Below, piece after piece: positions 8,100 to 38,908 of a DNA stretch of 38,908 nucleotides. Origin of the DNA: Opitutia bacterium (GTDB lineage: Bacteria; Verrucomicrobiota; Verrucomicrobiia; Opitutales; UBA953). Made by a program: the position numbers and the translations under genes. Location of the stretch: contig CANGRI010000005.1 of NCBI GenBank assembly GCA_947456525.1, positions 1 through 38,908 on the forward strand, in the 5' to 3' direction. The notes under the pieces are model-generated. The model saw nothing but the letters and a program-made list of their open reading frames with translations. It was not told the origin of the DNA and searched no databases. The first letter of the stretch is position 1; the number at the start of each line of letters is the position of its first letter.

Positions 8100-9536
8100 C
8101 TAGGCAATCACCGCTTTGACCACGTTGCCGGCGACATCCGTCAGGCGGTAATAACGCCCCTGGAACTTGAAGGTCTGCCTTTCGTGGTCCACGCCGAGCA
8201 GATGTTGCATCGTCGCATGAAGGTCATGCACATGCACGGGGTCTTTCACGATGTTGTAACCGAACTCGTCGGTCTGGCCGTGGACGTGTCCGCCTCTGAC
8301 TCCGCCGCCGGCCATCCAGAGGCTGAAGCAGCGGGGATGATGGTCGCGGCCATAGCTGTCCTTGGTGATCTTACCTTGGCTGTAAGCGGTGCGACCGAAC
8401 TCGCCGCCCCAGATCACGAGAGTGTCTTCGAGGAGTCCGCGTTGCTTGAGGTCCTTGATGAGCGCGGCCGAGGCCTGGTCAGTCTGCTTGCACTGGCGTC
8501 GGATGCCGCCCGGCAGGCCGCCATGCTGGTCCCAACCCTGGTGGAAGAGCTGGACGAACCGCACGCCCTTCTCGATGAGCCGGCGGGCCTGGAGGCAATT
8601 GGCAGCGAAGGAGCCGGGCGTCTTCACGCTGTCGCCGTACATCGCGAGCGTCGTGGGAGATTCGTTCGAGAGGTCGGCGACCTCCGGCACGCTCGTCTGC
8701 ATACGATAAGCCATCTCCGCCTGGGCAAGGCGGGCATCGACCTCCGGGTCGAGTTCCGCCGCTCGCTGGTCGGCGTTGAGCTTGCCCAGCGCGTCAAGCA
8801 TGCCGCGTCGGGCGTGGGGCGAGACACCTTCGGGGTTGGTCAGGAAGAGCACCGGCTCCTTGCCGGCCTTGAATTGCACCCCCTGGTGCTCGGATGGCAG
8901 GAATCCAGCCCCCCAGAGTCGGGAGTAAAGCGGCTGATCCTTCGTCGCGTCCTGCGAGACGAGCACGATGAACGCCGGCAGGTTTTCGTTCATGCTGCCG
9001 AGACCGTAAGAAGCCCAGGCGCCCATCGAAGGGCGGCCGGCCACCTGGTTGCCGGAGCAGAAGAAGGTGATGGCCGGATCGTGGTTGATCGCTTCGGTGT
9101 GCATCGTGCGGATCACGCACAGGTCATCGGCGACTTCACCGGTTTGGCTCAGCAAGTCGCTGTATTCGACGCCGCTCTGGCCGTACTTCTTGAAGTCGGT
9201 GAAAGAACCCGCCAGCGGAAGGGTCGCCTGATAGCCGCTCATGCCGGTGAGACGCTGGCCTTGGCGGACGGAATCGGGTAACGGTTGCGTATGCTTTTCC
9301 CGGAGCAGCGGTTTCGGGTCGAGGGTCTCGAACTGCGAAGGTCCGCCGGCCTGGAAGAGATAGATGACTCGTTTGGCCTTCGCGGGGAAGTGCGTCCCCT
9401 TAGGCAGCGTCGCGGCTTGGGCGTCGCCGACGATTCCGCGCATGGCCAAAGCGCCGAGACCGAGGGCAGAGGTGCCGAGGAAGTGCCGACGCGTATGCCG
9501 CATCAGGCTGTCGTATGAAGGCTTGGACGGTTCCAT
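8100..9536 (-). CDS. DUF1501 domain-containing protein, Tat-like signal
   Basis: RRHFLGTSALGLGALA; typical DUF1501 segments FLFQAGGPSQFETLDPKP, WDQHGGLPGGIRRQCKQTDQASAALIKDLKQRGLLEDTLVIWGGEFGRTAYSQG, GRDHHPRCFSLWMAGGGVRGG. Confidence 0.93.
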   Translation of the reverse strand: MEPSKPSYDSLMRHTRRHFLGTSALGLGALAMRGIVGDAQAATLPKGTHFPAKAKRVIYLFQAGGPSQFETLDPKPLLREKHTQPLPDSVRQGQRLTGMSGYQATLPLAGSFTDFKKYGQSGVEYSDLLSQTGEVADDLCVIRTMHTEAINHDPAITFFCSGNQVAGRPSMGAWASYGLGSMNENLPAFIVLVSQDATKDQPLYSRLWGAGFLPSEHQGVQFKAGKEPVLFLTNPEGVSPHARRGMLDALGKLNADQRAAELDPEVDARLAQAEMAYRMQTSVPEVADLSNESPTTLAMYGDSVKTPGSFAANCLQARRLIEKGVRFVQLFHQGWDQHGGLPGGIRRQCKQTDQASAALIKDLKQRGLLEDTLVIWGGEFGRTAYSQGKITKDSYGRDHHPRCFSLWMAGGGVRGGHVHGQTDEFGYNIVKDPVHVHDLHATMQHLLGVDHERQTFKFQGRYYRLTDVAGNVVKAVIA

Positions 9537-9538
9537 GG

Positions 9539-12500
9539 TCAGCGGGAGGTGACGGCGGCGTCGCTCGCCAGGATCGTCGAGCAGACAAGGGTGAGTGCGG
9601 CGAGGGAAGGGTCGGCGGGCATCTTGGGGAGCACCGAAGTTGCTTCGACGGCAGGCTTCTTCTTGGCCTTGGCCTCAGGCTTTGCATCCGGCTTAGGTGT
9701 CGTCGTGGTTAACTGCGGAGGGTTGGCCTTCTGGGTCGCGTAGAGTTCCTTCAATGCGGCCAGCTCGGACGGACGCGGCTCGCGGGTGCACACGTGGCGG
9801 AAGGCGGCGACGATCTGCGCCGAGACGTCGGGTGCCCCTTTGCTGACCTTGATGGCGAGGTTTTTGGCGGCTTCGACGAACCCAGGGTTGTTCAAGAGCA
9901 CCAGCGCCTGGAGAGGCGTGTTGGTGTTCAGGCGCTTGGGCTGGCAGACTTCGCGGGAGCCGGCATCGAAGATCAGCATGTTATCCGGCGGGGCCGTCCG
10001 CTTACGGTAGGTGTAAAGACTGCGACGGTTAGCGGATTCCTGGACGCTCTCGCCGCCGACTTTCTCTACAAGCGTGCCCGCGGCGAGCAAAGCCTGGTCA
10101 CGGACCATCTCGGCCGTGAGCCGCAGGACCGGACCGCGTGCGAGCAACTTGTTCGAAGGATCCTTTTCGCGTGCTTCGGCCGTAGGCGTCGAAGACTGTC
10201 TGAACGTCGAACTCAGGACGAAACGCCGGAGCAAAGCCTTGGTGTTCCAGCCGCTTTTGACGAAATCGACCGCGAGCGTGTCGAGCAGCTCGGGGTGGGA
10301 AGGCAGGTCTCCCTGCATGCCCAGGTTCTCGCTGGTCGCGACGAGCCCCGCGCCAAAGACCTGAGCCCAGAGTCGGTTGACGATCACGCGCGAGGTGAGC
10401 GGGTGTTTCGGGTCTGTGAGCCATCTGGCAAGTCCCAGGCGGTTCTTCGGCAGGGACTCATCCCAAGGGTGGATACGCGTCGGGACTCCGGGTTCGCACG
10501 GCTTGGTCAGGTCTGGCTTGTCGTATTCGCCTCGGGTAAGCACGAAGCTCTTCGGAGCCAGGTCGGAATGCTCCATCGCGAAGAACGCCGGAGCGGATTC
10601 CTGATGGGCGGCCAGGGCTCGCCGGGAATCCTGCAGGCGCGACCAAGCCTGCGCGTAGGCAGGGTCGGCGCGAAGACGCGAATGTTCGGCTAAGACGCCT
10701 GCGGGGAGGGTCGCGAAGTCGATGCCGTGCAGCGTCGCCACTTCGGCGGCCGTGAGGGCCGTCCTCCAGAGCTGGATTTCATCGATGGAGCCGTTGCGGA
10801 AGCCGGCATCACGGGAGCGGGAGCCGATTTCGAGCGAGTTGTCCCGCGGCTTCGCGTTGAGCGTATCCCGGACGACGGTCGTCTTCGCTTCGCGCCCGTC
10901 GACGTAAACGTGCAGGCCTGCGGCCTTCGATGAGCCGTCGTAGGTGACGGTCACACGCTGCCACGCACCGACGGGCAGTTCGTCCCGGGTCTCGATGGAC
11001 GCGGCGCTGTTCGGCCAGAGATGGATCATGCTCCAGCGGAGTTTACCGTGGTCGACGAGCAACTCGACTCCCGTGGCATCGCCGTCGCCGGTGTAGAATC
11101 CGGTGGAATGGATGACCGTGGCGCGGGCGTTCTTCTCGCCCAGGCGTAGGAAGGCGGAGAAGGTGAACGCATCGAAACGTCCGAGCTGCTTGAACTCCGG
11201 GAGGATGAATCCCGCATCGCCGTCGAACTTCACCGCGTTGCCCTTCACGCCAGGCACGAGTTGGAGGTCTTCCGGAGAACCACGGCGTTCGAATTTCGCC
11301 GGCTTGCCGCCGGCGACCGAGTTATCGACGCCTGACTTGGTGAACGCCTCCAACGGGAAATGGGCGACCGGGGCCGGCACCGTGACGGATGCGGGCGGCC
11401 CGCTGGGCGTGAGGTCGGCCAGAGCTGTTTCCGCGGCCGTGACGGCGCTTCGCAGGGACGACTCCGTCCGTCGGTCGGCCTCGGACTTATAAAGACGAAC
11501 AAAAGGCGGGGGGACTTCGCCATGATAGGACAGGAGGCCGTTTTCGTTCTGGTCGCCGAACATCGCCGCCATCGAGTAGTAGTCGCGCTGCGAGATCGGA
11601 TCGTACTTATGGTCATGGCAGCGCGAGCACTCCATGGTCAGTCCCATGAAGCCGTAACTGGCGGTGATGACCCGGTCATTGATGCCGTCTTGGCGGAATT
11701 CCTCGGCGATCGAGCCCCCCTCGAAAGTCATGCGATGAAGTCGGTTATAAGCCGTCGCCACCCGCTGGTCCTGGGTCGGATTCGGCAGCAAGTCGCCGGC
11801 CAGCTGCTCGGTCAGGAACTGGTCGTAGGGCTTGTTCTCGTTGAACGCCTTCAGCACCCAGTCGCGCCAGGGCCAGGCGAACATCGGCTTGTCCCCCGTG
11901 TAGCCCCAGGTGTCGGCATAACGGGAAAGGTCCATCCACCCGACGGCCAGATGCTCACCGTAACGTGGCGAGCCGAGCATCGCGTCGACGCGCTTCTCAT
12001 AAGCATCCGCGGACTTGTCGGCGAGGAACGCGTCGACCTCGGCAGTGGTCGGCGGCAGGCCGGTCAGGGCAAACGACGCACGACGGAGCAGGGTGGTGCG
12101 GTCGGCTTCGGCGGAAGGCTTGAGCCCAGCTTGGGCGGCCTTGGCGTAGATGAAGGTATCCAGCGGGTCCTTCGCCCATGCGGTGTCGGCGATGGCGGGC
12201 GACGGATAGGCGCGAGGGGGGACGAACGCCCAGTGCGGATCATATTTGGCTCCCTGCTTGATCCAACGGTTGAGGACATCTTTTTCAGCGGCCGAGAGGG
12301 GGCGATGCAACTCGGGCGGGGGCATGATTTCTTCGGGGTCCTGCGAGGCGATACGCTTCGCCATCGCGCTTTTCTCGAGGTCGCCGGGGACGATCGCGAC
12401 GTCTCCGCTCTTCAGCTTCTTCGTGGCGCCGGCCAAATCATCCAGTCTCAGACCTGCCTTTCGGCCTTTGTTCGCATCCGGTCCATGGCATCCGTAACAG

Positions 12501-12610
12501 CGATCGGAAAGGATCGGACGCACCTCCCGATTGAAGTCCACGCTCGCATCATCTGCCCACGCACGCGTTGCGGCCAGGATGACCAAGAAGGGGAGTGCGC
12601 GGACACGCAT
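9539..12610 (-). CDS. PSD1 / planctomycete-type cytochrome c (DUF1549-LamG-DUF1553) domain protein
   Basis: Haem motif RCYGCHG near the N-terminus; DUF1549-like KDPLDTFIYAKAAQAGLKPSAEADRTTLLRRASFALTGLPPT; internal LamG-like segment; DUF1553-like NRLWAQVFGAGLVATSENLGMQGDLPSHPELLD. Start set at MRVRALPFLVILAATRAWA. Confidence 0.93.
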   Translation of the reverse strand: MRVRALPFLVILAATRAWADDASVDFNREVRPILSDRCYGCHGPDANKGRKAGLRLDDLAGATKKLKSGDVAIVPGDLEKSAMAKRIASQDPEEIMPPPELHRPLSAAEKDVLNRWIKQGAKYDPHWAFVPPRAYPSPAIADTAWAKDPLDTFIYAKAAQAGLKPSAEADRTTLLRRASFALTGLPPTTAEVDAFLADKSADAYEKRVDAMLGSPRYGEHLAVGWMDLSRYADTWGYTGDKPMFAWPWRDWVLKAFNENKPYDQFLTEQLAGDLLPNPTQDQRVATAYNRLHRMTFEGGSIAEEFRQDGINDRVITASYGFMGLTMECSRCHDHKYDPISQRDYYSMAAMFGDQNENGLLSYHGEVPPPFVRLYKSEADRRTESSLRSAVTAAETALADLTPSGPPASVTVPAPVAHFPLEAFTKSGVDNSVAGGKPAKFERRGSPEDLQLVPGVKGNAVKFDGDAGFILPEFKQLGRFDAFTFSAFLRLGEKNARATVIHSTGFYTGDGDATGVELLVDHGKLRWSMIHLWPNSAASIETRDELPVGAWQRVTVTYDGSSKAAGLHVYVDGREAKTTVVRDTLNAKPRDNSLEIGSRSRDAGFRNGSIDEIQLWRTALTAAEVATLHGIDFATLPAGVLAEHSRLRADPAYAQAWSRLQDSRRALAAHQESAPAFFAMEHSDLAPKSFVLTRGEYDKPDLTKPCEPGVPTRIHPWDESLPKNRLGLARWLTDPKHPLTSRVIVNRLWAQVFGAGLVATSENLGMQGDLPSHPELLDTLAVDFVKSGWNTKALLRRFVLSSTFRQSSTPTAEAREKDPSNKLLARGPVLRLTAEMVRDQALLAAGTLVEKVGGESVQESANRRSLYTYRKRTAPPDNMLIFDAGSREVCQPKRLNTNTPLQALVLLNNPGFVEAAKNLAIKVSKGAPDVSAQIVAAFRHVCTREPRPSELAALKELYATQKANPPQLTTTTPKPDAKPEAKAKKKPAVEATSVLPKMPADPSLAALTLVCSTILASDAAVTSR

Positions 12611-12890
12611 GTGGAAGTGACACTCAACTTCCGCGCAGGGTTCCTGTCGAACGGCGAATCCTGGATGAGTGCCTTTCCCCATCTCATTTCCCCTCTTTTA
12701 CCCCTCTTTGACTTAACTTGATTTGCTCGCTCGAACCCTTTCGGTCGTATGTCCGGCGAGACTGGGCTGCTAACATATCGTTATTCTTTGCCCTTTTCCT
12801 TTTAATGACTGATTTAATCATATCTATCATAAAAGAAGGATTTCGATCATTTGACCTTGCCAAAACATTCATGAAAGACCCAATAAGCCC

Positions 12891-14246
12891 ATGACGACGA
12901 AGCTATTCGGTACGGACGGCATCCGTGGCAAGGCGAACGAATACCCGATCACTCCTGAGATCGCTTTGCGCATCGGACAGGCGATTTCCCGAGTCCTGCG
13001 TTCCAGCGGAGCCAATCATAACCGTGTCATTATCGGCAAGGACACCCGAATCTCGGGATACATGCTCGAGACCGCCTTGACCAGCGGACTCGTGTCGAGC
13101 GGGATGGATGTCTTCCTGGTCGGCCCGATGCCCACTCCGGCTGTCGCGCATCTCACCAAATCGATGGGCTGCGGAGCCGGCATCATGCTGACGGCTTCGC
13201 ATAATCCTTACGAAGACAACGGCCTGAAGATCTTCGGTCCTGACGGCTATAAGCTTTCGGACGACCTCGAAGCCCTCGTCGAGCAGGAGGTCTTGTACGA
13301 CGTAAAGGCCAATGGCGTCACCGGCGACAAGATCGGCAAGGCCTATCGCATCGACGATGCCCGCGGACGATACATCGAGTTCGTGAAGCAGAGCCTCGGC
13401 AACGCGCACCTCGACGGCATGAAGATCGTCGTCGATTGCGGCCATGGCGCGGGCTACCTGCTGGCTCCACTCATCTTCAAGGAACTCGGCGCCAAGGTCG
13501 TCAAGCTGGGCGTCGAACCGGATGGCATCAACATCAACGCCGGAGTCGGCGCGCTCTATCCCGAATTCGCCGGCAAGGTCGTCAAGGAGCAGGGCGCTGA
13601 TGTCGGCATCTCGCTGGACGGAGACGCCGATCGCGTGATCTTCTCGGATGCCAGCGGCGCGACCGTCTCGGGCGACCGCATCCTCGCGATGTCCGCTCTG
13701 GCGCTGAAGGAGGAGGGCAAGCTTTCGGGCAACACGATGGTCTGCACGGTGATGTCCAATCTCGGCCTCCATGAGGCCATGCGCAAAGCCGGCATCGGCG
13801 TCGTGACCACCGCCGTGAGCGACCGTCATGTCATCGAAGCCCTCCGCAAGGGCGGCTATTCCTTCGGCGGCGAAAACTCCGGCCACCTCATCTTCGCCGA
13901 CTACGCCTCCACCGGGGACGGCATCCTCAGCGCGCTCCAGGTCCTGCGTTTCATGCGGAAGAAGGGCGCCACGCTCGCCGACCTTGCGGCCGGCATGCGC
14001 GAGTACCCTCAGGCTTTGGTCAACCTCAAGGTGAAGGCACGGGTGCCGCTCGTGCAGCTCAACACCCTGCAGGAATCGATTCGCAAGGCTGACGCCAGCT
14101 TCGGCAACGCGGGACGTCATCTCATCCGTTATTCGGGCACCGAGAACAAACTTCGCATCCTCGTCGAGCATCAGGATCAGGCCGAAGTCGACCGTTGGTC
14201 CCTGGTGTTCCGTCAGGCGGTCGAGGCTGATTTCGAGAACCTCTAA
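12891..14246 (+). CDS. glmM: Phosphoglucosamine mutase
   Basis: MTTKLFGTDGIRGKAN, catalytic serine loop TASHNPYEDNGLKIFG, SLDGDADR, GGENSGH, IRYSGTENKLRILVE. Confidence 0.96.
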   Translation: MTTKLFGTDGIRGKANEYPITPEIALRIGQAISRVLRSSGANHNRVIIGKDTRISGYMLETALTSGLVSSGMDVFLVGPMPTPAVAHLTKSMGCGAGIMLTASHNPYEDNGLKIFGPDGYKLSDDLEALVEQEVLYDVKANGVTGDKIGKAYRIDDARGRYIEFVKQSLGNAHLDGMKIVVDCGHGAGYLLAPLIFKELGAKVVKLGVEPDGININAGVGALYPEFAGKVVKEQGADVGISLDGDADRVIFSDASGATVSGDRILAMSALALKEEGKLSGNTMVCTVMSNLGLHEAMRKAGIGVVTTAVSDRHVIEALRKGGYSFGGENSGHLIFADYASTGDGILSALQVLRFMRKKGATLADLAAGMREYPQALVNLKVKARVPLVQLNTLQESIRKADASFGNAGRHLIRYSGTENKLRILVEHQDQAEVDRWSLVFRQAVEADFENL

Positions 14247-14247
14247 G

Positions 14248-15132
14248 ATGGCGACCTTCCACCTTCCTGCCGCGGGCGATGCTCCCGGGTGTCATCCGCT
14301 GACCGTCACGCGCTCATTGGCCGACTTCCCTCTGGGTAACGTAACCCTTCGCCGGCATCAGCAGGCGGCGCTCATCGCCGCGGGTCTGTCCGAGGTCCCT
14401 GGCCCTGCGGCGGACCTGCAGGTCAATCCAGCCGCTTGGTTCGCGCCGGCCGAGCTCGCCACATTCGTGGCGGACTCATCCTACGCCTCGATGGTGCAGG
14501 AGGATGGCACGGTGCTTCTCCGTCGCCAGGTAGGCTCACGCGAGCTACGCGTGACGCAATCTTACGCCATCGCCTATAGCTGGGATCTCCTCCGCGCCAA
14601 CGCCGAGGCCATGACCGCCCGTAAAACATACGCCATGGATTCCGGGGCGCACGCCTCGCTGTACGTCGACGGTCGACTGCAGGTAGGCAAGGGAACCAAG
14701 ATCCTGCCGGGCGTCGTCATCGAAGGGGACGTCATCATCGGCGACAACTGCAAGGTGGGCCCTAACTGCTATATCCGCGGCTCGACCGCGATCGGTGACA
14801 AGTGCCATGTCGGCCAGGCCGTCGAGATCAAGAATTCGATCCTGCTTTCAGGCACGAACGTCGGGCACCTCTCTTACCTCGGTGACTCGATCCTCGGGGA
14901 GAAGGTCAACTTCGGCGCAGGCACGATCACCTCTAATCTGCGCCACGACGGCGGGACGCATCGTAGCCCCGTCGAAGGCCGCATGGTCGACACCGGTCGC
15001 CGCAAGCTCGGCGCCATCGTCGGCGACGGGGTCCACACCGGCATCCATACGTCCCTCTATCCCGGCCGTAAGCTCTGGCCCAAGACCATCACCTTGCCAG
15101 GCGCCATCGTCGACAAGGACATCCTTTCCTGA
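14248..15132 (+). CDS. Alternative GlmU-like protein (shortened N-terminal domain plus left-handed beta-helix acyltransferase domain)
   Basis: N-terminal HPLTVTRSLADFPLGNVTLRRHQQ resembles the alternative bacterial GlmU family start; hexapeptide repeats from ~aa 140 (VGKGTKILPGVVIEGDVIIGDNCKVGPNCYIRGSTAIG); FGAGTITSNLRHDGG; lies between glmM and glmS. Confidence 0.8.
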   Translation: MATFHLPAAGDAPGCHPLTVTRSLADFPLGNVTLRRHQQAALIAAGLSEVPGPAADLQVNPAAWFAPAELATFVADSSYASMVQEDGTVLLRRQVGSRELRVTQSYAIAYSWDLLRANAEAMTARKTYAMDSGAHASLYVDGRLQVGKGTKILPGVVIEGDVIIGDNCKVGPNCYIRGSTAIGDKCHVGQAVEIKNSILLSGTNVGHLSYLGDSILGEKVNFGAGTITSNLRHDGGTHRSPVEGRMVDTGRRKLGAIVGDGVHTGIHTSLYPGRKLWPKTITLPGAIVDKDILS

Positions 15133-15134
15133 CC

Positions 15135-16973
15135 ATGTGCGGCATCATCGGCTATGTCGGTCGCTCCGCGGCCACTCCCGTCCTCCTCGGCGGACTTCGA
15201 CGTCTGGAGTATCGCGGATATGATTCCGCCGGCCTCTCGGTCCAGGATGGCAAAGGTCTCCTGACCTTGCGCGCGGTCGGCAAGGTCGCCCGTCTGGCCG
15301 ACAAGGTCCGCGCCGATTGGCCCGAGTCCCTTCAGGCCCGTTGCACCGTCGGCATCGCCCACACGCGTTGGGCGACCCACGGCGCGCCCACCGAAGCCAA
15401 TGCCCATCCTCATGCGGATGCCAGCGGCAAGATCCGCCTGGTTCATAACGGGATCATCGAGAACTACCGCGTCATCCGCGCCAAGCTGGAGGCCAAGGGA
15501 CATGTCTTTTCCTCCGAGACCGACACCGAAGCGGTCGCCCGGCTGGTCGGTGAATATTACAAAGGGGACCTCCGCAAGGCCGTCATCTCCGCGCTCCGTC
15601 AGGTCGAGGGCGCCTATGGTATCGCCGTCATCTCCGCGGACGAACCAGGACGCATCGTCGTAGCCCGCAAAGGCAGCCCGCTTGTCATCGGCGTCGGCGA
15701 AGGGGAGTGCCTCGTGGCTTCCGACCCCTCGGCGCTGATCTCGCATACCCGACGTGTCATCTACCTCGACGATGGCGACGTCGCGCTGGTCACCGCCGAC
15801 ACCGTCGACATCACCGACCTCAACCACGCCCCGATGGACCGCGATGTCGCCGAACTGGAATTCGAGGCAGGGGCCGTCGAGAAGGGAGGCTTCGAGCACT
15901 TCATGCTCAAGGAGATCCATGAGCAGCCCGAATCCGTCCGCAACGCCCTGCGCGGTCGGCTCGACCTCCTCAACGGCACCGCGGTCCTTTCCGGCATGGG
16001 CGCCACCGCCCGTGAGCTCAGCGACCTCCAGCGCATCGTCATGGTCGGCTGCGGGACGTCGCTCCATGCCGGCATGGTCGGCGACTTCGCCTTCGAAGAC
16101 CTGGCGGCCATCCAGGCCGAAGTCCAGCAGGCGGCGGAGTTCCGTTACCGCAATCCTTTGGTCGACGGTCGCGACCTCGTCGTCGCCATCTCCCAATCTG
16201 GCGAGACCGCCGACACCTTGGCCGCGGTACGCGAGGCCAAGGAGAAGGGCGCCATGGTCATGGGGCTTGTCAACGTCGTCGGTTCGACCATCGCCCGCGA
16301 GGCCGGCCGAGGCGTCTACCTGCATGCCGGCCCCGAGATCTCCGTCGCCTCGACCAAGGCCTTCACCGGCCAGGTCGCCGTGCTCTTGCTGATGGCGTTG
16401 AAACTGGGCCGAGGACGCCGCCTATCCCGCGAGCGTGGCCTTGCCTTGGCTTCCGAGATCGCCCGCTTGCCTGAACTCATCGAAGCCGTCCTGAAGCAGG
16501 ACGCCGCCATCGCCAAGGTCGCCGAAAGCATGGTCAAGCACGAGCATGCCTTCTTCCTCGGTCGCGGCCCGATGTATCCCGTGGCCCTCGAAGGCGCGCT
16601 CAAGCTCAAGGAGATCTCCTACATCCACGCCGAGGGATACCATGCCGCCGAACTCAAGCATGGCCCCATCGCCTTGCTGACGCCGGGCATGCCGGTGGTC
16701 GTCCTCGCGAACCGATCCCCGGTCGTCGACAAGACCTTGGGCAACGCCGAGGAGTGCAAGGCCCGCGGCGCGCGCATCATCGCCGTCGTCACCGAGGGCG
16801 GCCCCGAAGCGGCGATCGCCGACGAGGTCATCCGGATCCCCGACTGCGATCCTTTGGTCGCCACGATTCCCGCGGCCGTCGCATTGCAGCTGCTTTCCTA
16901 CCACGTGGCCCGCCTGCGAGGTTGCCCGATCGATCAGCCGCGCAACTTGGCGAAGTCCGTGACCGTGGAGTAA
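15135..16973 (+). CDS. glmS: Glutamine--fructose-6-phosphate aminotransferase (isomerizing)
   Basis: MCGIIGYVG with N-terminal Cys nucleophile; HTRWATHG; SIS domains; C-terminus DQPRNLAKSVTVE. Confidence 0.97.
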   Translation: MCGIIGYVGRSAATPVLLGGLRRLEYRGYDSAGLSVQDGKGLLTLRAVGKVARLADKVRADWPESLQARCTVGIAHTRWATHGAPTEANAHPHADASGKIRLVHNGIIENYRVIRAKLEAKGHVFSSETDTEAVARLVGEYYKGDLRKAVISALRQVEGAYGIAVISADEPGRIVVARKGSPLVIGVGEGECLVASDPSALISHTRRVIYLDDGDVALVTADTVDITDLNHAPMDRDVAELEFEAGAVEKGGFEHFMLKEIHEQPESVRNALRGRLDLLNGTAVLSGMGATARELSDLQRIVMVGCGTSLHAGMVGDFAFEDLAAIQAEVQQAAEFRYRNPLVDGRDLVVAISQSGETADTLAAVREAKEKGAMVMGLVNVVGSTIAREAGRGVYLHAGPEISVASTKAFTGQVAVLLLMALKLGRGRRLSRERGLALASEIARLPELIEAVLKQDAAIAKVAESMVKHEHAFFLGRGPMYPVALEGALKLKEISYIHAEGYHAAELKHGPIALLTPGMPVVVLANRSPVVDKTLGNAEECKARGARIIAVVTEGGPEAAIADEVIRIPDCDPLVATIPAAVALQLLSYHVARLRGCPIDQPRNLAKSVTVE

Positions 16974-33501: not shown

Positions 33502-33638
33502 TCATTAGTTAATTAGACATAATGTATATTGTGCGAAATATAGGTGAGGCCGGCCGGGTTTGGGAATTTGCGTTATTGATTGGTCGATTGGGAACGCTCA
33601 TAACGGCAAGAACGCTAACCCCCAGAGCACACGACTTT

Positions 33639-34418
33639 ATGAAAGTAGCCCGACACATCATTGAAGCCCGCCGCGAAGCGATTGCCAAACTTCTCTCCAA
33701 GGTCGGGTACGTCCCTGTCCTGGAGATCTGCAAACAATTCAATGTCTCCGAGGCGACGGCTCGCCGCGATCTGACCGAACTCGAGAACCAGCGTCGCATC
33801 ACCCGTACTCATGGCGGAGCGCTCTCGGACTTCAACCGCAACTTCCCCCCGCTCGACGACCGCAAGATCGAAGACGCCGAAGCCAAGCGCAAGATCGGCA
33901 ACATGGCCGCGTCGCGCGTCAAGGCCGGCATGACCGTATATCTCGACTCCGGTTCGACCATCTTCTTCGCCGCCGAAGCCATCGCTTCCGCCGGTGTCCC
34001 GGATCTGCAGATTGTCACGACCTGCCTGCCGACCGCTCAGCTGATCTCCTGCCTGCCGGGCGTCGAGGTCTACATCCCGGGCGGTCTTTTCCTGACCCGC
34101 CATGCGATGGTCGCCGGCGATCGCACGCTCGAGGAAGTCGCCCGCTGGAATTTCGACGTGGCCCTGCTCGGCGCCGAAGGCATCGACGAAAACGGTCTCT
34201 GGAATTCCCAGCGCGACATTTCCCATCAGCAGCGCGAAGTCATCCGTCGCAGCGACGAGGTCCTGATCTGCATGAACAAGGTCAAACTGGGCCGCGGCGG
34301 TCCTTGTGCCGTCACCCGTGACGTCAGCTCCTTGTTCCTGGTCACCGATGCGGACGCGGCGTCGGTCCAGAAAGCCAAGGTCAAGCTGTTGCCCGAGCGC
34401 GTCCTGACCGCCCTCTGA
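33639..34418 (+). CDS. DeoR/GlpR family transcriptional regulator
   Basis: HTH segment VLEICKQFNVSEATARRDLTELENQRRITRTHGGAL; sensor domain SGSTIFFAAEAI, GAEGIDENGLWN. Confidence 0.94.
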   Translation: MKVARHIIEARREAIAKLLSKVGYVPVLEICKQFNVSEATARRDLTELENQRRITRTHGGALSDFNRNFPPLDDRKIEDAEAKRKIGNMAASRVKAGMTVYLDSGSTIFFAAEAIASAGVPDLQIVTTCLPTAQLISCLPGVEVYIPGGLFLTRHAMVAGDRTLEEVARWNFDVALLGAEGIDENGLWNSQRDISHQQREVIRRSDEVLICMNKVKLGRGGPCAVTRDVSSLFLVTDADAASVQKAKVKLLPERVLTAL

Positions 34419-34437
34419 TCGCCTGGTTTCCCTAGGA

Positions 34438-35193
34438 ATGTCCGCCGAGGCCATCCAGTCTTTGCTAGAACTGTCCCATCAGTTGGGCGGTGAACGTTTG
34501 CGCATGGCGATCCTCGGCGAAGGCAACACTTCGGTGCGACTTGATGACGATGTCTTCGCCGTCAAGGCCTCGGGGTCCAATCTCGCCACGCTGAAGGATG
34601 CCGACGTCACGCGTTGCGCCTTCTCGCGTCTGCTCCCCCTGCTCGATGCTCCCTCGGCCACCGACGTCGAAGTCGATCAAGCCCTGCTGGCTTCACGTCT
34701 CGATCCTTCGGCCAAGAAGCCTTCGATCGAAGCCCTCTTCCACGCCTATCTGCTCACCCTGCCCGGCGTTCGTTGCGTCGGTCACGTGCATGCGATCGCG
34801 GTGAACCAGATCCTTTGTTCCCCCCGAGCCCGTGAGTTCGCCGAGAAGCGAGCCTGTCCCGATGAGATCGTGATGTGCGGCGTGGAGTCGGTCTTCGTCC
34901 CCTACGCCGAACCCGGCCTCGGACTATCCCAGGCGATCCGCCGTGAAGTCATTGCTTACGTCAAGCGCACCGGTCGCGACCCCAAGGTCATCCTCCTGCA
35001 GAACCACGGCATCATCGCAGTAGGCTTCTCACCCAAGGCCGTCCTAGGATCCCTGCTCATGGCCGAGAAAGCCGCCGAAACGTTCGTCGGGGCGGCCGCC
35101 CTTGGTGGTCCGGTGTTCCTCACCCCTGCCCAGTGCGAACGTATCGCCGGTCGCCCTGATGAGCATTACCGCCAGAAGATGCTCGGAATGTGA
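34438..35193 (+). CDS. Class II aldolase/adducin family protein
   Basis: GEGNTSVRLDDDVFAVKASGSNL, VGHVHAIAVNQILCS, ILLQNHGIIAVG. Confidence 0.88.
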   Translation: MSAEAIQSLLELSHQLGGERLRMAILGEGNTSVRLDDDVFAVKASGSNLATLKDADVTRCAFSRLLPLLDAPSATDVEVDQALLASRLDPSAKKPSIEALFHAYLLTLPGVRCVGHVHAIAVNQILCSPRAREFAEKRACPDEIVMCGVESVFVPYAEPGLGLSQAIRREVIAYVKRTGRDPKVILLQNHGIIAVGFSPKAVLGSLLMAEKAAETFVGAAALGGPVFLTPAQCERIAGRPDEHYRQKMLGM

Positions 35194-35223
35194 CCGCCCA
35201 CTCCTCCCCTCCCCCTTTTGACC

Positions 35224-36693
35224 ATGTCCAATTATCTCGCCATCGACCTCGGAGCCGAATCCGGGCGTGTCATCCTCGGCCAGCTTAAAGCCGGCAAGTT
35301 CACGATGAAGGAGATTCATCGCTTCTCAAACGGGGCCATCACGGCCAACGGCACCCTGCGCTGGGACATCATCCGCATCTTCCGCGAGATCCGCGTCGGA
35401 CTCGCCAAGGGCGCCAAGCTCGGCCCGATCAAGTCCGTCGCCTGCGATTCGTGGGGCGTCGACTATGTCCTGCTCAAGGGCGATGGTCCGCTGCTTTCGC
35501 TTCCCTTCACCTACCGCGACGAACGGAGTTTCGCGTCCTACGAACTGGCCATGCGCCGTTTCTCGCAGAAGGAGATCTTCGAAGGCACCGGCATCGCCTC
35601 GATTTCGATCAACACGCTCTACCAGCTTTTCCACGACGCCGAAAATCGTCCCGAGATGCTGCAGTTCGCCGACAAGTTCCTGCTGATCGGCGACTACATC
35701 ACCTGGCTCCTGACCGGCAAAGCCCGCGCCGAAGAGACGCTGATCTCGGGCAGCCAGTGCTGGGATACCCGCAAGCGCGACTGGGCCTGGCCCGTGCTGA
35801 AGAAACTCGGCATTCCGAAGCATATCTTCCCCAAACCCGTCGCCCCGGGCGTTAAGCTCGGCAAGATGCTGCCTTACCTCGCCAAGGAAACCGGCTTAGG
35901 CAAGGCCGAGGTCGTCACGACCTGCGCCCATGACACCGCCGCGGCCGTCGCGGCCGTCCCCGCCACCAAGGGTGACGATTGGGCCTATCTCTCCTCCGGC
36001 ACCTGGTCGCTCCTGGGCCTCGAACTGCCCAAGCCGCTCGTCAACGAGACCGTCCGCGAGGCTAAGTACACCAATGAAGTGGGTTTCGGAGGCACCTCCC
36101 GCTTCCTCAAGAATCTGGTCGGCCTCTGGGTCCTCCAGGAATGCCGTCGCGAGTGGATGGAAAAAGGCGAGGTCTCCGATTACGGCGAGATCGTTAAGCT
36201 CGCGCTGAAGGCGCCTTCGCTCCGTTCGTTCATCCGTCCCGACGACATCCGTTTCGCCAAGCGCGGAGACATGGTCGCCAAGGTACAGGCCTTCTGCCGC
36301 GAGACCAAGCAACCCGTCCCGAAGACCCACGGCGAGATCGCCCGCTGTGTGCTCGAATCTTTGGCGCTGCTTTATCGTGTCGAAATGGACGGCATGGAGA
36401 AGCTTACGGGCCGCAAGCTGAAGCGCCTACACATCGTCGGCGGCGGCTGTCGCAACGCCCTGCTCAATCAAGCCACCGCCGATGCCACCGGTCGCACGGT
36501 CATCGCCGGCCCGGTCGAAGCCACGGCTGCCGGCAACATCCTCGTCCAGGCTATCGCCATGAAAGAGCTCAAGAACCTCGACGAACTCCGCAAGGTCGTC
36601 CGAAACTCTTTTGAGGTAGTGACTTACACACCCAATCCGACCTCGGCATGGGCAGCGGCCCAAGCGAAGTTTAATGGTTTAAAGAAAGCATAA
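35224..36693 (+). CDS. rhaB: Rhamnulokinase (FGGY family)
   Basis: YLAIDLGAESGRVILG, RWDIIRIFREI, CDSWGVDYVLL, SSGTWSLLGLELPKPLVNE, LHIVGGGCRNALLNQATADATGRTVIAGPVEATAAGNILVQA. Confidence 0.94.
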   Translation: MSNYLAIDLGAESGRVILGQLKAGKFTMKEIHRFSNGAITANGTLRWDIIRIFREIRVGLAKGAKLGPIKSVACDSWGVDYVLLKGDGPLLSLPFTYRDERSFASYELAMRRFSQKEIFEGTGIASISINTLYQLFHDAENRPEMLQFADKFLLIGDYITWLLTGKARAEETLISGSQCWDTRKRDWAWPVLKKLGIPKHIFPKPVAPGVKLGKMLPYLAKETGLGKAEVVTTCAHDTAAAVAAVPATKGDDWAYLSSGTWSLLGLELPKPLVNETVREAKYTNEVGFGGTSRFLKNLVGLWVLQECRREWMEKGEVSDYGEIVKLALKAPSLRSFIRPDDIRFAKRGDMVAKVQAFCRETKQPVPKTHGEIARCVLESLALLYRVEMDGMEKLTGRKLKRLHIVGGGCRNALLNQATADATGRTVIAGPVEATAAGNILVQAIAMKELKNLDELRKVVRNSFEVVTYTPNPTSAWAAAQAKFNGLKKA

Positions 36694-36731
36694 AACCCCT
36701 TACTCAACACCCTCCTTTCCACGTAACAAAC

Positions 36732-38908
36732 ATGTCCAACTACAAGTACGTCTCTCACCTCTGGAACGATGCCGAAGCCGCGAAGCTCGATCCGGTCGGC
36801 CGTCTGGTCTATCGCTCCAACAAGCTCGGAGCCGACCAGCGCATCACGAACACCGGCGGCGGTAACACCTCTTCCAAGATCGTCGAGAAGGACCCTCTGA
36901 GCGGCACCGACACCCAGGTCCTATGGGTCAAGGGTTCGGGCGGCGACCTCCGCACCAGCAATCGCGACAACTTCTCCTCCCTGTACCAAGACAAGCTCAT
37001 CGGACTCCAGAAGTCATATGCAGCCCGCACGGACAAGGGCCTCAAGTCCCAGGCCGAAGACGACATGGTCGGCATGTACAACCACGCCACCTTCAACCTG
37101 AACCCGCGCGCCTCGTCGATCGACACGCCGCTGCACAGCTTCCTTCCCGGCAAGCACGTCGACCACATGCATCCAAACGCGATCATCTCGATCGCCGCGT
37201 CGAAGAACTGCGAAGCCCTCACGAAGGAGATCTTCGCCGGCAAGATGGCCTACGTGAAGTGGATGCGCCCGGGCTTCGAGCTCGGCCTCGCCATGCAGGA
37301 CATCTCCCGCCAGCAGCCGGCCATCAAGGCCATCATGATGGGCCAGCACGGCTTCATCTCCTGGGCTGACGACGACAAGGCCTGCTATGAGCTGACCCTC
37401 GCCATGATCGAGCAGGCCGCGGCCTACATCGACGCCAAGTATCAGGCCATGGGCGGCGACGCCAAGGCCTTCGGCGGCGCCCTCTACCAGACCCTCGACA
37501 CCGAGAAGCGTCACGCCACCTTCGCCGCTATCCTGCCTTGGCTCCGCGGCCAGGTCTCCAAGGAGAAGCGCTTCATCGGCACGATCCAGGAAGACGAAAA
37601 GATCCTCCGCTTCGTCAACTCGAAGGACGCCCCGCGTCTCGCCGAGCTCGGCACTTCCTGCCCGGACCATTTCCTCCGCACGAAGATCAAGCCCCTCTAC
37701 GTGAACTGGAACCCCCAATCCGAAGACGCCGCCGCGCTGAAGACCAAGCTGGCCGCCGCCCTCGAGCAGTACCGCAAGGATTACGCCGCCTATTACAATG
37801 CCTGCAAGCGACCGAACTCCCCGGCGATGCGCGACCCGAATCCGACCGTCGTCCTCATCCCCGGCCTCGGCATGATCGCCTGGGGCAAGGATAAGTCCGA
37901 ATCCCGCGTCACGGCCGAGTTCTACAACTGCGCCGTCGAGGTCATGCGCGGCGCCGAAGCCATCGACCAGTATATCGCCCTACCCCAGCAGGAAGCCTTC
38001 GACATCGAATACTGGCTCCTCGAAGAAGCGAAGCTGAAGCGCATGCCGGCCGAGAAGGAACTCGCCCGCCAGGTGATCATCGTCGTCGGCGCCGGCTCCG
38101 GCATCGGCAAGGAGACCGCCCATCGCCTCGTCAAGGAAGGCGCCCACATCGTCTGCGTCGACAAGAACGTCGAAGCCGCCCAGGCCACCGCCAAGGAGAT
38201 CACCGACAAGCTCGGCTCCGGCATCGGCGTCGCCGGCACCGGCCTCTCCAACTGCGGTCCGGCCATCGGCCTTTCCGGCGACATCATGGACCGCGCTTCG
38301 ATCCGTAAGATGCTCGACCAGGTCGCGCTGGCTTACGGCGGTTTCGACTCCATCTGCGTCACCGCGGGCATCTTCGTGTCCCCGGACACCACCGGCCACA
38401 TCCCGGACGACAAGTGGGCGCTCACCTTCGCCCTCAACGTTACCGGCAGCTACCTCGTCGCCGACGAAGCGTTCAAGACATGGAAGGAACAGGGACTCCG
38501 CGGCAACCTCGTCCTGACCACCAGCGCCAACGCCGCCGTGGCCAAGAAGGGTTCCGTCGCCTACGACACCTCGAAGGCCGCCGCCAACCACCTCGTCCGC
38601 GAGATGGCCATGGAGCTCTCGCCCCTCATCCGCGTCAACGGCGTGGCCCCGGCCACCGTCGTGCAGGGTTCGGCGATGTTCCCGCGCGACCGAGTGATCG
38701 CGTCGCTTGCGAAGTACAACATTCCCTACACCGATGATGAGGCGACCGATTCGCTGACGACGAAGCTCTCCCGCTTCTACGCCGATCGCACCCTGACCAA
38801 GAACCCCATCACCCCCGCCGACCAGGCCGAAGCCTACTTCCTCCTCGTGACCAATCGCCTCAGCAAGACGACCGGACAGGTCATCACCGTCGACGGCGGC
38901 CTCCACGA
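36732..38908 (+). CDS. rhaD: Bifunctional rhamnulose-1-phosphate aldolase / short-chain (lactaldehyde) dehydrogenase, truncated at the right edge
   Basis: ORF open to the window end, so absent from the supplied track. Aldolase half GGGNTSSKI, HVDHMHPNAIISIAASK, GQHGFISW; SDR half IIVVGAGSGIGKETAHRL and YDTSKAAANHL. Confidence 0.93.
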   Translation, partial: MSNYKYVSHLWNDAEAAKLDPVGRLVYRSNKLGADQRITNTGGGNTSSKIVEKDPLSGTDTQVLWVKGSGGDLRTSNRDNFSSLYQDKLIGLQKSYAARTDKGLKSQAEDDMVGMYNHATFNLNPRASSIDTPLHSFLPGKHVDHMHPNAIISIAASKNCEALTKEIFAGKMAYVKWMRPGFELGLAMQDISRQQPAIKAIMMGQHGFISWADDDKACYELTLAMIEQAAAYIDAKYQAMGGDAKAFGGALYQTLDTEKRHATFAAILPWLRGQVSKEKRFIGTIQEDEKILRFVNSKDAPRLAELGTSCPDHFLRTKIKPLYVNWNPQSEDAAALKTKLAAALEQYRKDYAAYYNACKRPNSPAMRDPNPTVVLIPGLGMIAWGKDKSESRVTAEFYNCAVEVMRGAEAIDQYIALPQQEAFDIEYWLLEEAKLKRMPAEKELARQVIIVVGAGSGIGKETAHRLVKEGAHIVCVDKNVEAAQATAKEITDKLGSGIGVAGTGLSNCGPAIGLSGDIMDRASIRKMLDQVALAYGGFDSICVTAGIFVSPDTTGHIPDDKWALTFALNVTGSYLVADEAFKTWKEQGLRGNLVLTTSANAAVAKKGSVAYDTSKAAANHLVREMAMELSPLIRVNGVAPATVVQGSAMFPRDRVIASLAKYNIPYTDDEATDSLTTKLSRFYADRTLTKNPITPADQAEAYFLLVTNRLSKTTGQVITVDGGLH

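Follow-up and report, generated by a model that had tools for sequence, protein, structure and literature searches.

Peptidoglycan and lipid A both require UDP-N-acetylglucosamine (UDP-GlcNAc), and GlmU is a target for antibacterial agents. Three curated NCBIfam families describe GlmU: the classical (TIGR01173), the alternative bacterial (TIGR03991), on which our literature search found no publication, and the archaeal (TIGR03992). The classical enzyme carries a complete pyrophosphorylase, with an LxxGxGTRM motif and catalytic Lys and Asp residues, and an acetyltransferase whose active site we take to comprise R333, E349, K351, H363, Y366, N377 and N386 (E. coli numbering). The archaeal enzyme ST0452 is also active on galactosamine-1-phosphate (GalN-1-P), and its Lys337 and Lys340 are functional residues.

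Here we analyse a glmM–x–glmS operon in a 38,908-nt stretch of DNA from a verrucomicrobial water bacterium (the window, meaning the whole stretch; Table 1). The product of its middle gene, 294 residues long, is in all likelihood a monofunctional glucosamine-1-phosphate N-acetyltransferase, a reading based on sequence and predicted structure, with uridylylation left to a separate enzyme. The genome is a metagenome-assembled genome (MAG), 65% complete, and absences were therefore judged from its relatives.

Table 1. Features of the glmM–glmS locus, in window coordinates.
Feature	Position	Strand	Evidence
glmM, phosphoglucosamine mutase	12891..14246	+	TIGR01455, 561 bits (cut-off 448)
Short GlmU-like gene, predicted monofunctional glucosamine-1-phosphate N-acetyltransferase	14248..15132	+	294-aa ORF; TIGR03992 positions 213–393 only; ST0452 best in PDB by sequence and fold; conserved in 35 homologues
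Probable vestigial nucleotidyltransferase domain, residues 1–124, about 100 residues short	14248..14619	+	AF2 pLDDT 93; Foldseek nucleotidyltransferases only; 111 residues before W112
Possible degenerate NTP-binding signature remnant, residues 6–31, LPAAGDAPGCHPLTVTRSLADFPLGN (cf. Woesearchaeotal AGKSTRTYPLTLTRPKALLSIAN)	14263..14340	+	HMM-HMM alignment to L052/L053; insignificant phmmer segment against ST0452; suggestive only
Predicted left-handed beta-helix acetyltransferase domain, residues 136–294	14653..15129	+	PF00132, 57 bits; TIGR03992 and ST0452 match; AF2 model
Codon of His207, putative counterpart of catalytic His363 (E. coli GlmU) and His308 (ST0452)	14866..14868	+	Alignments; invariant in 35 homologues
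glmS, glutamine-fructose-6-phosphate transaminase	15135..16973	+	TIGR01135, 774 bits

A short gene between glmM and glmS

The nearest named relatives of the window are Opitutae/Verrucomicrobiota records. The open reading frame is exactly as short as the earlier note described, and lies 1 bp from glmM upstream and 2 bp from glmS downstream. Thirty-five homologues align with its product end to end or nearly so, and among 12 close homologues pN/pS is 0.31 for residues 1–105 and 0.066 for residues 136–294, which mark it as a real, constrained gene. That a frameshift, an assembly deletion or a mis-called start hides a full-length gene here has a negligible probability: both flanking gaps leave just 1–2 bp, and dozens of independent genomes, isolates included, share a similar length and gene order. 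Because the homologues are short all over the phylum, the local artefact that the earlier note had considered was rejected; length and synteny are both conserved.

Elsewhere in the window, the minus strand at 8100–12682 encodes a long protein that bears, close to the N-terminus, a c-type-cytochrome-like motif (CYGCHG), in tandem with a Tat-signal-like protein, a pair that we take to resemble the paired cytochrome and DUF1501 genes of planctomycetes and verrucomicrobia. At 33522–38908 on the plus strand, a DeoR-like regulator and aldolase-like, sugar-kinase-like and long dehydrogenase/aldolase-like frames form a putative operon resembling one for L-rhamnose utilisation.

Family assignment

The protein falls below the curated full-length scores of all three GlmU families. 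It reaches 228.6 bits against TIGR03992 (cut-off 292.1) over profile positions 213–393 only, 100.7 bits against TIGR01173 (cut-off 366.85) over the C-terminal positions 299–428 only, and 99.1 bits against TIGR03991 (cut-off 225.3) over positions 199–329 of about 394, with PF13562 giving only E = 0.025. Among solved structures, those nearest in sequence are chains of ST0452 (2ggo, 5z09), in which positions 211–393 align with residues 110–292, and the archaeal-type stretch as a whole comprises residues 108–294. By these comparisons the closest family is archaeal GlmU (TIGR03992/ST0452), with which the protein shares a homologous acetyltransferase domain and a nucleotidyltransferase-derived N-terminus; the complete pyrophosphorylase of classical GlmU, with its LxxGxGTRM and catalytic Lys/Asp, is lacking. 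The protein most likely descends from an archaeal-type bifunctional GlmU.

The proposal that the protein belongs to TIGR03991 did not hold: we rejected it on score and coverage (99 bits against a cut-off of 225, with the N-terminus uncovered), the archaeal type is closer, and a profile of the N-terminal domain was also insignificant against a full-length member. That member (L101:1489-2724, genome G154) is the only one that a search for full-length bacterial TIGR03991 relatives, sought for a better profile, turned up among 96 phylum genomes; it, too, is without a clear GxGTR signature.

The acetyltransferase domain

The beta-helix starts near residue 136–140, in agreement with the earlier placement around residue 140. 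Within it, R177, E193, K195, H207, Y210, N221 and N230 are invariant among the 35 homologues and align, in that order, with the seven E. coli active-site residues given above; since these residues both match and are invariant, the domain is expected to work as an acetyltransferase. The AF2 model of the whole protein (pLDDT 86, pTM 0.88) retrieves ST0452 first in Foldseek, with a TM-score of 0.73–0.76 by query and alignments of about 357–395 columns for a 294-residue query. The suggestion that this is an acetyltransferase-only enzyme, with uridylylation done elsewhere, is supported by a TIGR03992 match confined to the acetyltransferase half and by a nucleotidyltransferase fold lacking about 100 residues. 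Counting against it, Lys337 and Lys340 of ST0452 are replaced by Gly236 and Arg239.

We consider that the protein most likely acetylates glucosamine-1-phosphate (GlcN-1-P) only. Its closest characterised relative being the GalN-1-P-active ST0452, and two loop lysines differing between them, one might suppose that another amino sugar-1-phosphate such as GalN-1-P is the substrate instead. This is very unlikely: the gene shares its operon with glmM and glmS, and the class offers no classical GlmU to take over the GlcN-1-P step, none of 113 class genomes having one above the TIGR01173 cut-off among the matches listed (best 13 nucleotidyltransferase candidates per genome scored, matches listed down to about E = 3.5e-13).

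The N-terminal stump

Modelled alone, residues 1–124 fold with a pLDDT of 93, and all of the 50 Foldseek matches listed are nucleotidyltransferases (ST0452, MurU, IspD, RmlA), the best with TM-scores of 0.60–0.69. The alignments span about 180–245 columns for 124 residues (190–240 for the best matches), which implies that the fold lacks about 100 residues. Rather than an unrelated leader, this stretch is predicted with high confidence to be a miniaturised nucleotidyltransferase fold, without the regions of the catalytic Lys and the metal-binding Asp. The earlier note, which saw little room for a complete nucleotidyltransferase, was right; a complete fold, which it named as an outcome that would tell against its reading, was not found in the prediction, the fold being reduced by about half.

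The note's failure to see LxxGxGTRM was likewise justified, the intact motif being absent and only a degenerate trace present (L6-PAAGDAPGCHPLTVTRSLADFPLGN-31), from which the signature Lys is missing. Global HMM alignment with full-length GlmU of Woesearchaeota matches LPAAGDAPGCHPLTVTRSLADFPLGN to the NTP-binding signature and the segment IAYSWDLLRAN to the last nucleotidyltransferase helix; because the local alignment begins at residue 108, the placement of LPAAGDAPGCHPLTVTRSLADFPLGN as a remnant of the signature is suggestive only.

Counts of residues before the conserved Trp place this stump in a series: 223–224 in full-length archaeal GlmU, 111 here (W112), 86–88 in genomes resembling Luteolibacter and Haloferula, and 48 and 37 in a pair of MAGs from the Akkermansiaceae. 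Read from these sequences, the series (224 > 111 > 87 > 48 > 37) is one of progressive erosion in relatives, and its members show successive stages by which half of a bifunctional enzyme decays. Constraint on the stump is about fivefold weaker than on the beta-helix (pN/pS 0.31 against 0.066) but still present. That it still works as a minimal uridylyltransferase, making the protein a compact bifunctional GlmU, would fit its nucleotidyltransferase-like fold, the purifying selection on it and the retention of PLTxTR, but is highly improbable given the loss of about 100 fold residues, the fivefold weaker constraint, a stump of just 37–48 residues in relatives with the same operon, and the finding that none of the Lys and Asp residues preceding position 111 is invariant, or almost so, in the 35 homologues.

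We regard the stump as a vestigial nucleotidyltransferase that is probably retained for a structural or docking function. A non-catalytic role in docking a separate uridylyltransferase (channelling GlcNAc-1-P), in trimer stability or in UDP-GlcNAc sensing is possible and compatible with the acetyltransferase-only explanation: the domain is confidently folded in the model, about 107–112 residues are retained in all Opitutae-like homologues, and R22, N31, L34 and W64 are conserved. The near loss of the stump in some Akkermansiaceae (L048, L049) argues that such a role is not universally needed.

Candidates for the uridylyl step

In the pathway that we propose, GlmS and GlmM would make GlcN-1-P, the GlmM product supplying the 294-residue enzyme, which would acetylate it with acetyl-CoA to GlcNAc-1-P; a separately encoded uridylyltransferase would then produce UDP-GlcNAc. 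With the uridylyltransferase head lost, here and in the greater part of the phylum, a separate enzyme must do this last step. The genome search that the earlier note advised found no second GlmU in this 65%-complete MAG, whose other nucleotidyltransferases are GlgC-, KdsB- and IspD-like proteins (read from sequence), a MurU–AmgK fusion and a protein similar to PDB 3pnn, an entry for which we found no literature.

Different lineages appear to use different enzymes for uridylylation: stand-alone proteins matching the N-terminal half of GlmU (GlmU-N) in class genomes, AGX1-type UDP-GlcNAc pyrophosphorylases (UAP) in Opitutaceae-like and Lentisphaeria-like genomes, or the 3pnn-like family. Two of the eukaryote-like AGX1/UAP-type genes (L161:691-2112, minus strand; L163:660-2066, plus strand) score about 260–270 bits to human AGX1/AGX2, and a UGP-type UDP-glucose pyrophosphorylase was identified in an Akkermansia-like genome. 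In the window's family, no stand-alone GlmU-N occurs among the NTP_transferase matches, and UAP was rejected as the partner because the UDPGP family (UAP/UGP) is absent from all 41 genomes, with 79 of 96 phylum genomes as positive control. GlmR/YvcK, for which accessory uridyltransferase activity has been shown (PMC10128056), was rejected as well: PF01933 is absent from 32 genomes (16 of the window's family and 16 other Verrucomicrobiota), the control being positive.

The 3pnn-like protein of the MAG (301 aa, G000:C1:29902-30804; 352 bits to 3pnn) is encoded beside a homologue of the N-acetylhexosamine 1-kinase NahK (318 bits), an arrangement found often. Together with a PIG-L-type de-N-acetylase the two genes form one run (L003:26-3454, about 28.8–32.2 kb of G000:C1) that looks like an amino-sugar salvage cluster. 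The gene is present in 27 of 28 genomes of the window's family and in two 0.9-Mb genomes; the reduced relatives G018 and G026 keep it with NahK not adjoining. The nucleotidyltransferase motifs AAGMGxRY..LKQ and NADDFYG are intact in 7/7 aligned members.

Among 109 class genomes, GlmU-N and the 3pnn-like gene are close to mutually exclusive: 38 have GlmU-N alone, 65 the 3pnn-like gene alone, two both and four neither (Fisher 2.4e-22; by family majority 20/1/2/18, 1.7e-8), and switches occur within families f6 and f31. Both values overstate the evidence, because the genomes are related and the survey lists only the strongest matches; none of the presence and absence patterns used here (GlmU-N, 3pnn, UAP, MurU) is phylogenetically independent. 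The 3pnn-like gene also occurs in many genomes that have UAP, so that its product may act on a different sugar in those genomes (UDP-Glc, UDP-GalNAc). For the window's family, we give an even chance to the prediction that the 3pnn-like enzyme is the partner, converting UTP and GlcNAc-1-P to UDP-GlcNAc.

It is also conceivable, though we think it rather unlikely, that the acetyltransferase reading is right and that the enzyme uridylylating GlcNAc-1-P is instead the MurU-like part of the MurU–AmgK fusion (563 aa, G000:C22:3499-5187, i.e. L002:1480-3168). Its two domains score 116 bits against MurU and 55 bits against AmgK, each under cut-off; the fusion is present in most genomes of the family, and genomes with UAP have MurU-like genes less often (3/26 vs 35/7 by genome, p = 7.7e-10). 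That pattern loses significance by family (p = 0.15), however. The fusion scored positive in 25 of 28 genomes of the window's family; several lack it or have only a part, and it does not occur in the 0.9-Mb f16 genomes, which retain the 3pnn-like gene. Moreover, the established role of MurU proteins is in MurNAc-1-P recycling. The 3pnn-like enzyme is favoured because of its exclusion pattern with GlmU-N, that of MurU with UAP being weaker. Genus g2 of the window's family and Akkermansia-like genomes encode MurU and AmgK separately.

Distribution and significance

In all Verrucomicrobiota genomes seen, close homologues have the same short length, and the order is nearly always glmM–x–glmS, with both neighbours flanking the short form in nearly all Verrucomicrobiota loci fetched and no nucleotidyltransferase hidden in the intergenic gaps of relatives. 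Full-length versions (~406 aa) hold the same operon position in Woesearchaeota, where the order glmM, GlmU, glmS is kept with one gene inserted before glmS. There are two beta-helix subfamilies, the HLSY type of the window and a PHFNY type in Opitutaceae-like (f3), f12 and f16 genomes that seems to replace it in other lineages; proteins with the PHFNYVGDS motif (L112, L113, L115, L151) consist of the beta-helix only, at about 235 aa.

The whole phylum, Akkermansia included, appears to be without a bifunctional GlmU. We tentatively suggest, at somewhat less than even likelihood, that Verrucomicrobiota broadly gave it up, keeping the acetyltransferase half, in many cases with a nucleotidyltransferase stump undergoing erosion, and that non-orthologous enzymes took over the uridylyl step. 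One of these would be the uncharacterised 3pnn-like family, as a new type of pyrophosphorylase for UDP-GlcNAc (or for UDP-HexNAc broadly); in the Akkermansia-like genome G127 it is paired with NahK. This phylum-wide reassignment of the final step of UDP-GlcNAc synthesis would be the most interesting consequence of the present analysis. G127 has a short HLSY-type protein and a cluster of a 3pnn-like nucleotidyltransferase, a NahK-like kinase and an NAD-dependent epimerase, while sister genomes of its genus have a UGP-type UDP-glucose pyrophosphorylase, so that UDP-glucose is covered there by another enzyme. A UDP-GlcNAc gap has already been noted in print: Akkermansia muciniphila is reported to lack GlmS and GlmM (PMC5814848) and to require external GlcNAc or GalNAc, and a shortcut from GlcNAc to peptidoglycan has been postulated (PMC5902328). 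We infer that the G127 cluster would supply this shortcut, giving it concrete candidate enzymes.

Comparison with known systems

The PHFNY-type proteins (e.g. L112, L115, L151) are likewise beta-helix-only and occur in genomes without a full GlmU, but they form a separate subfamily with another N-terminus and do not lie between glmM and glmS in the f16 loci viewed. The alternative GlmU (TIGR03991; L101 of G154) is also encoded beside glmS, and its first ~40 residues weakly resemble those of the 294-residue protein, which nevertheless does not match the TIGR03991 N-terminus (N-terminal profile against L101 not significant). Classical GlmU (TIGR01173) occupies the same place in the GlmS–GlmM–GlmU pathway and has the same acetyltransferase active-site residues, with the difference of a catalytic pyrophosphorylase domain that is absent here. 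ST0452 and TIGR03992 (PDB 2ggo, 5z09, 5z0a) share the acetyltransferase half, the last nucleotidyltransferase helix and the His/Tyr/Asn active site with the 294-residue protein, which scores below the TIGR03992 cut-off, whereas their nucleotidyltransferase domain is longer by about 100 residues.
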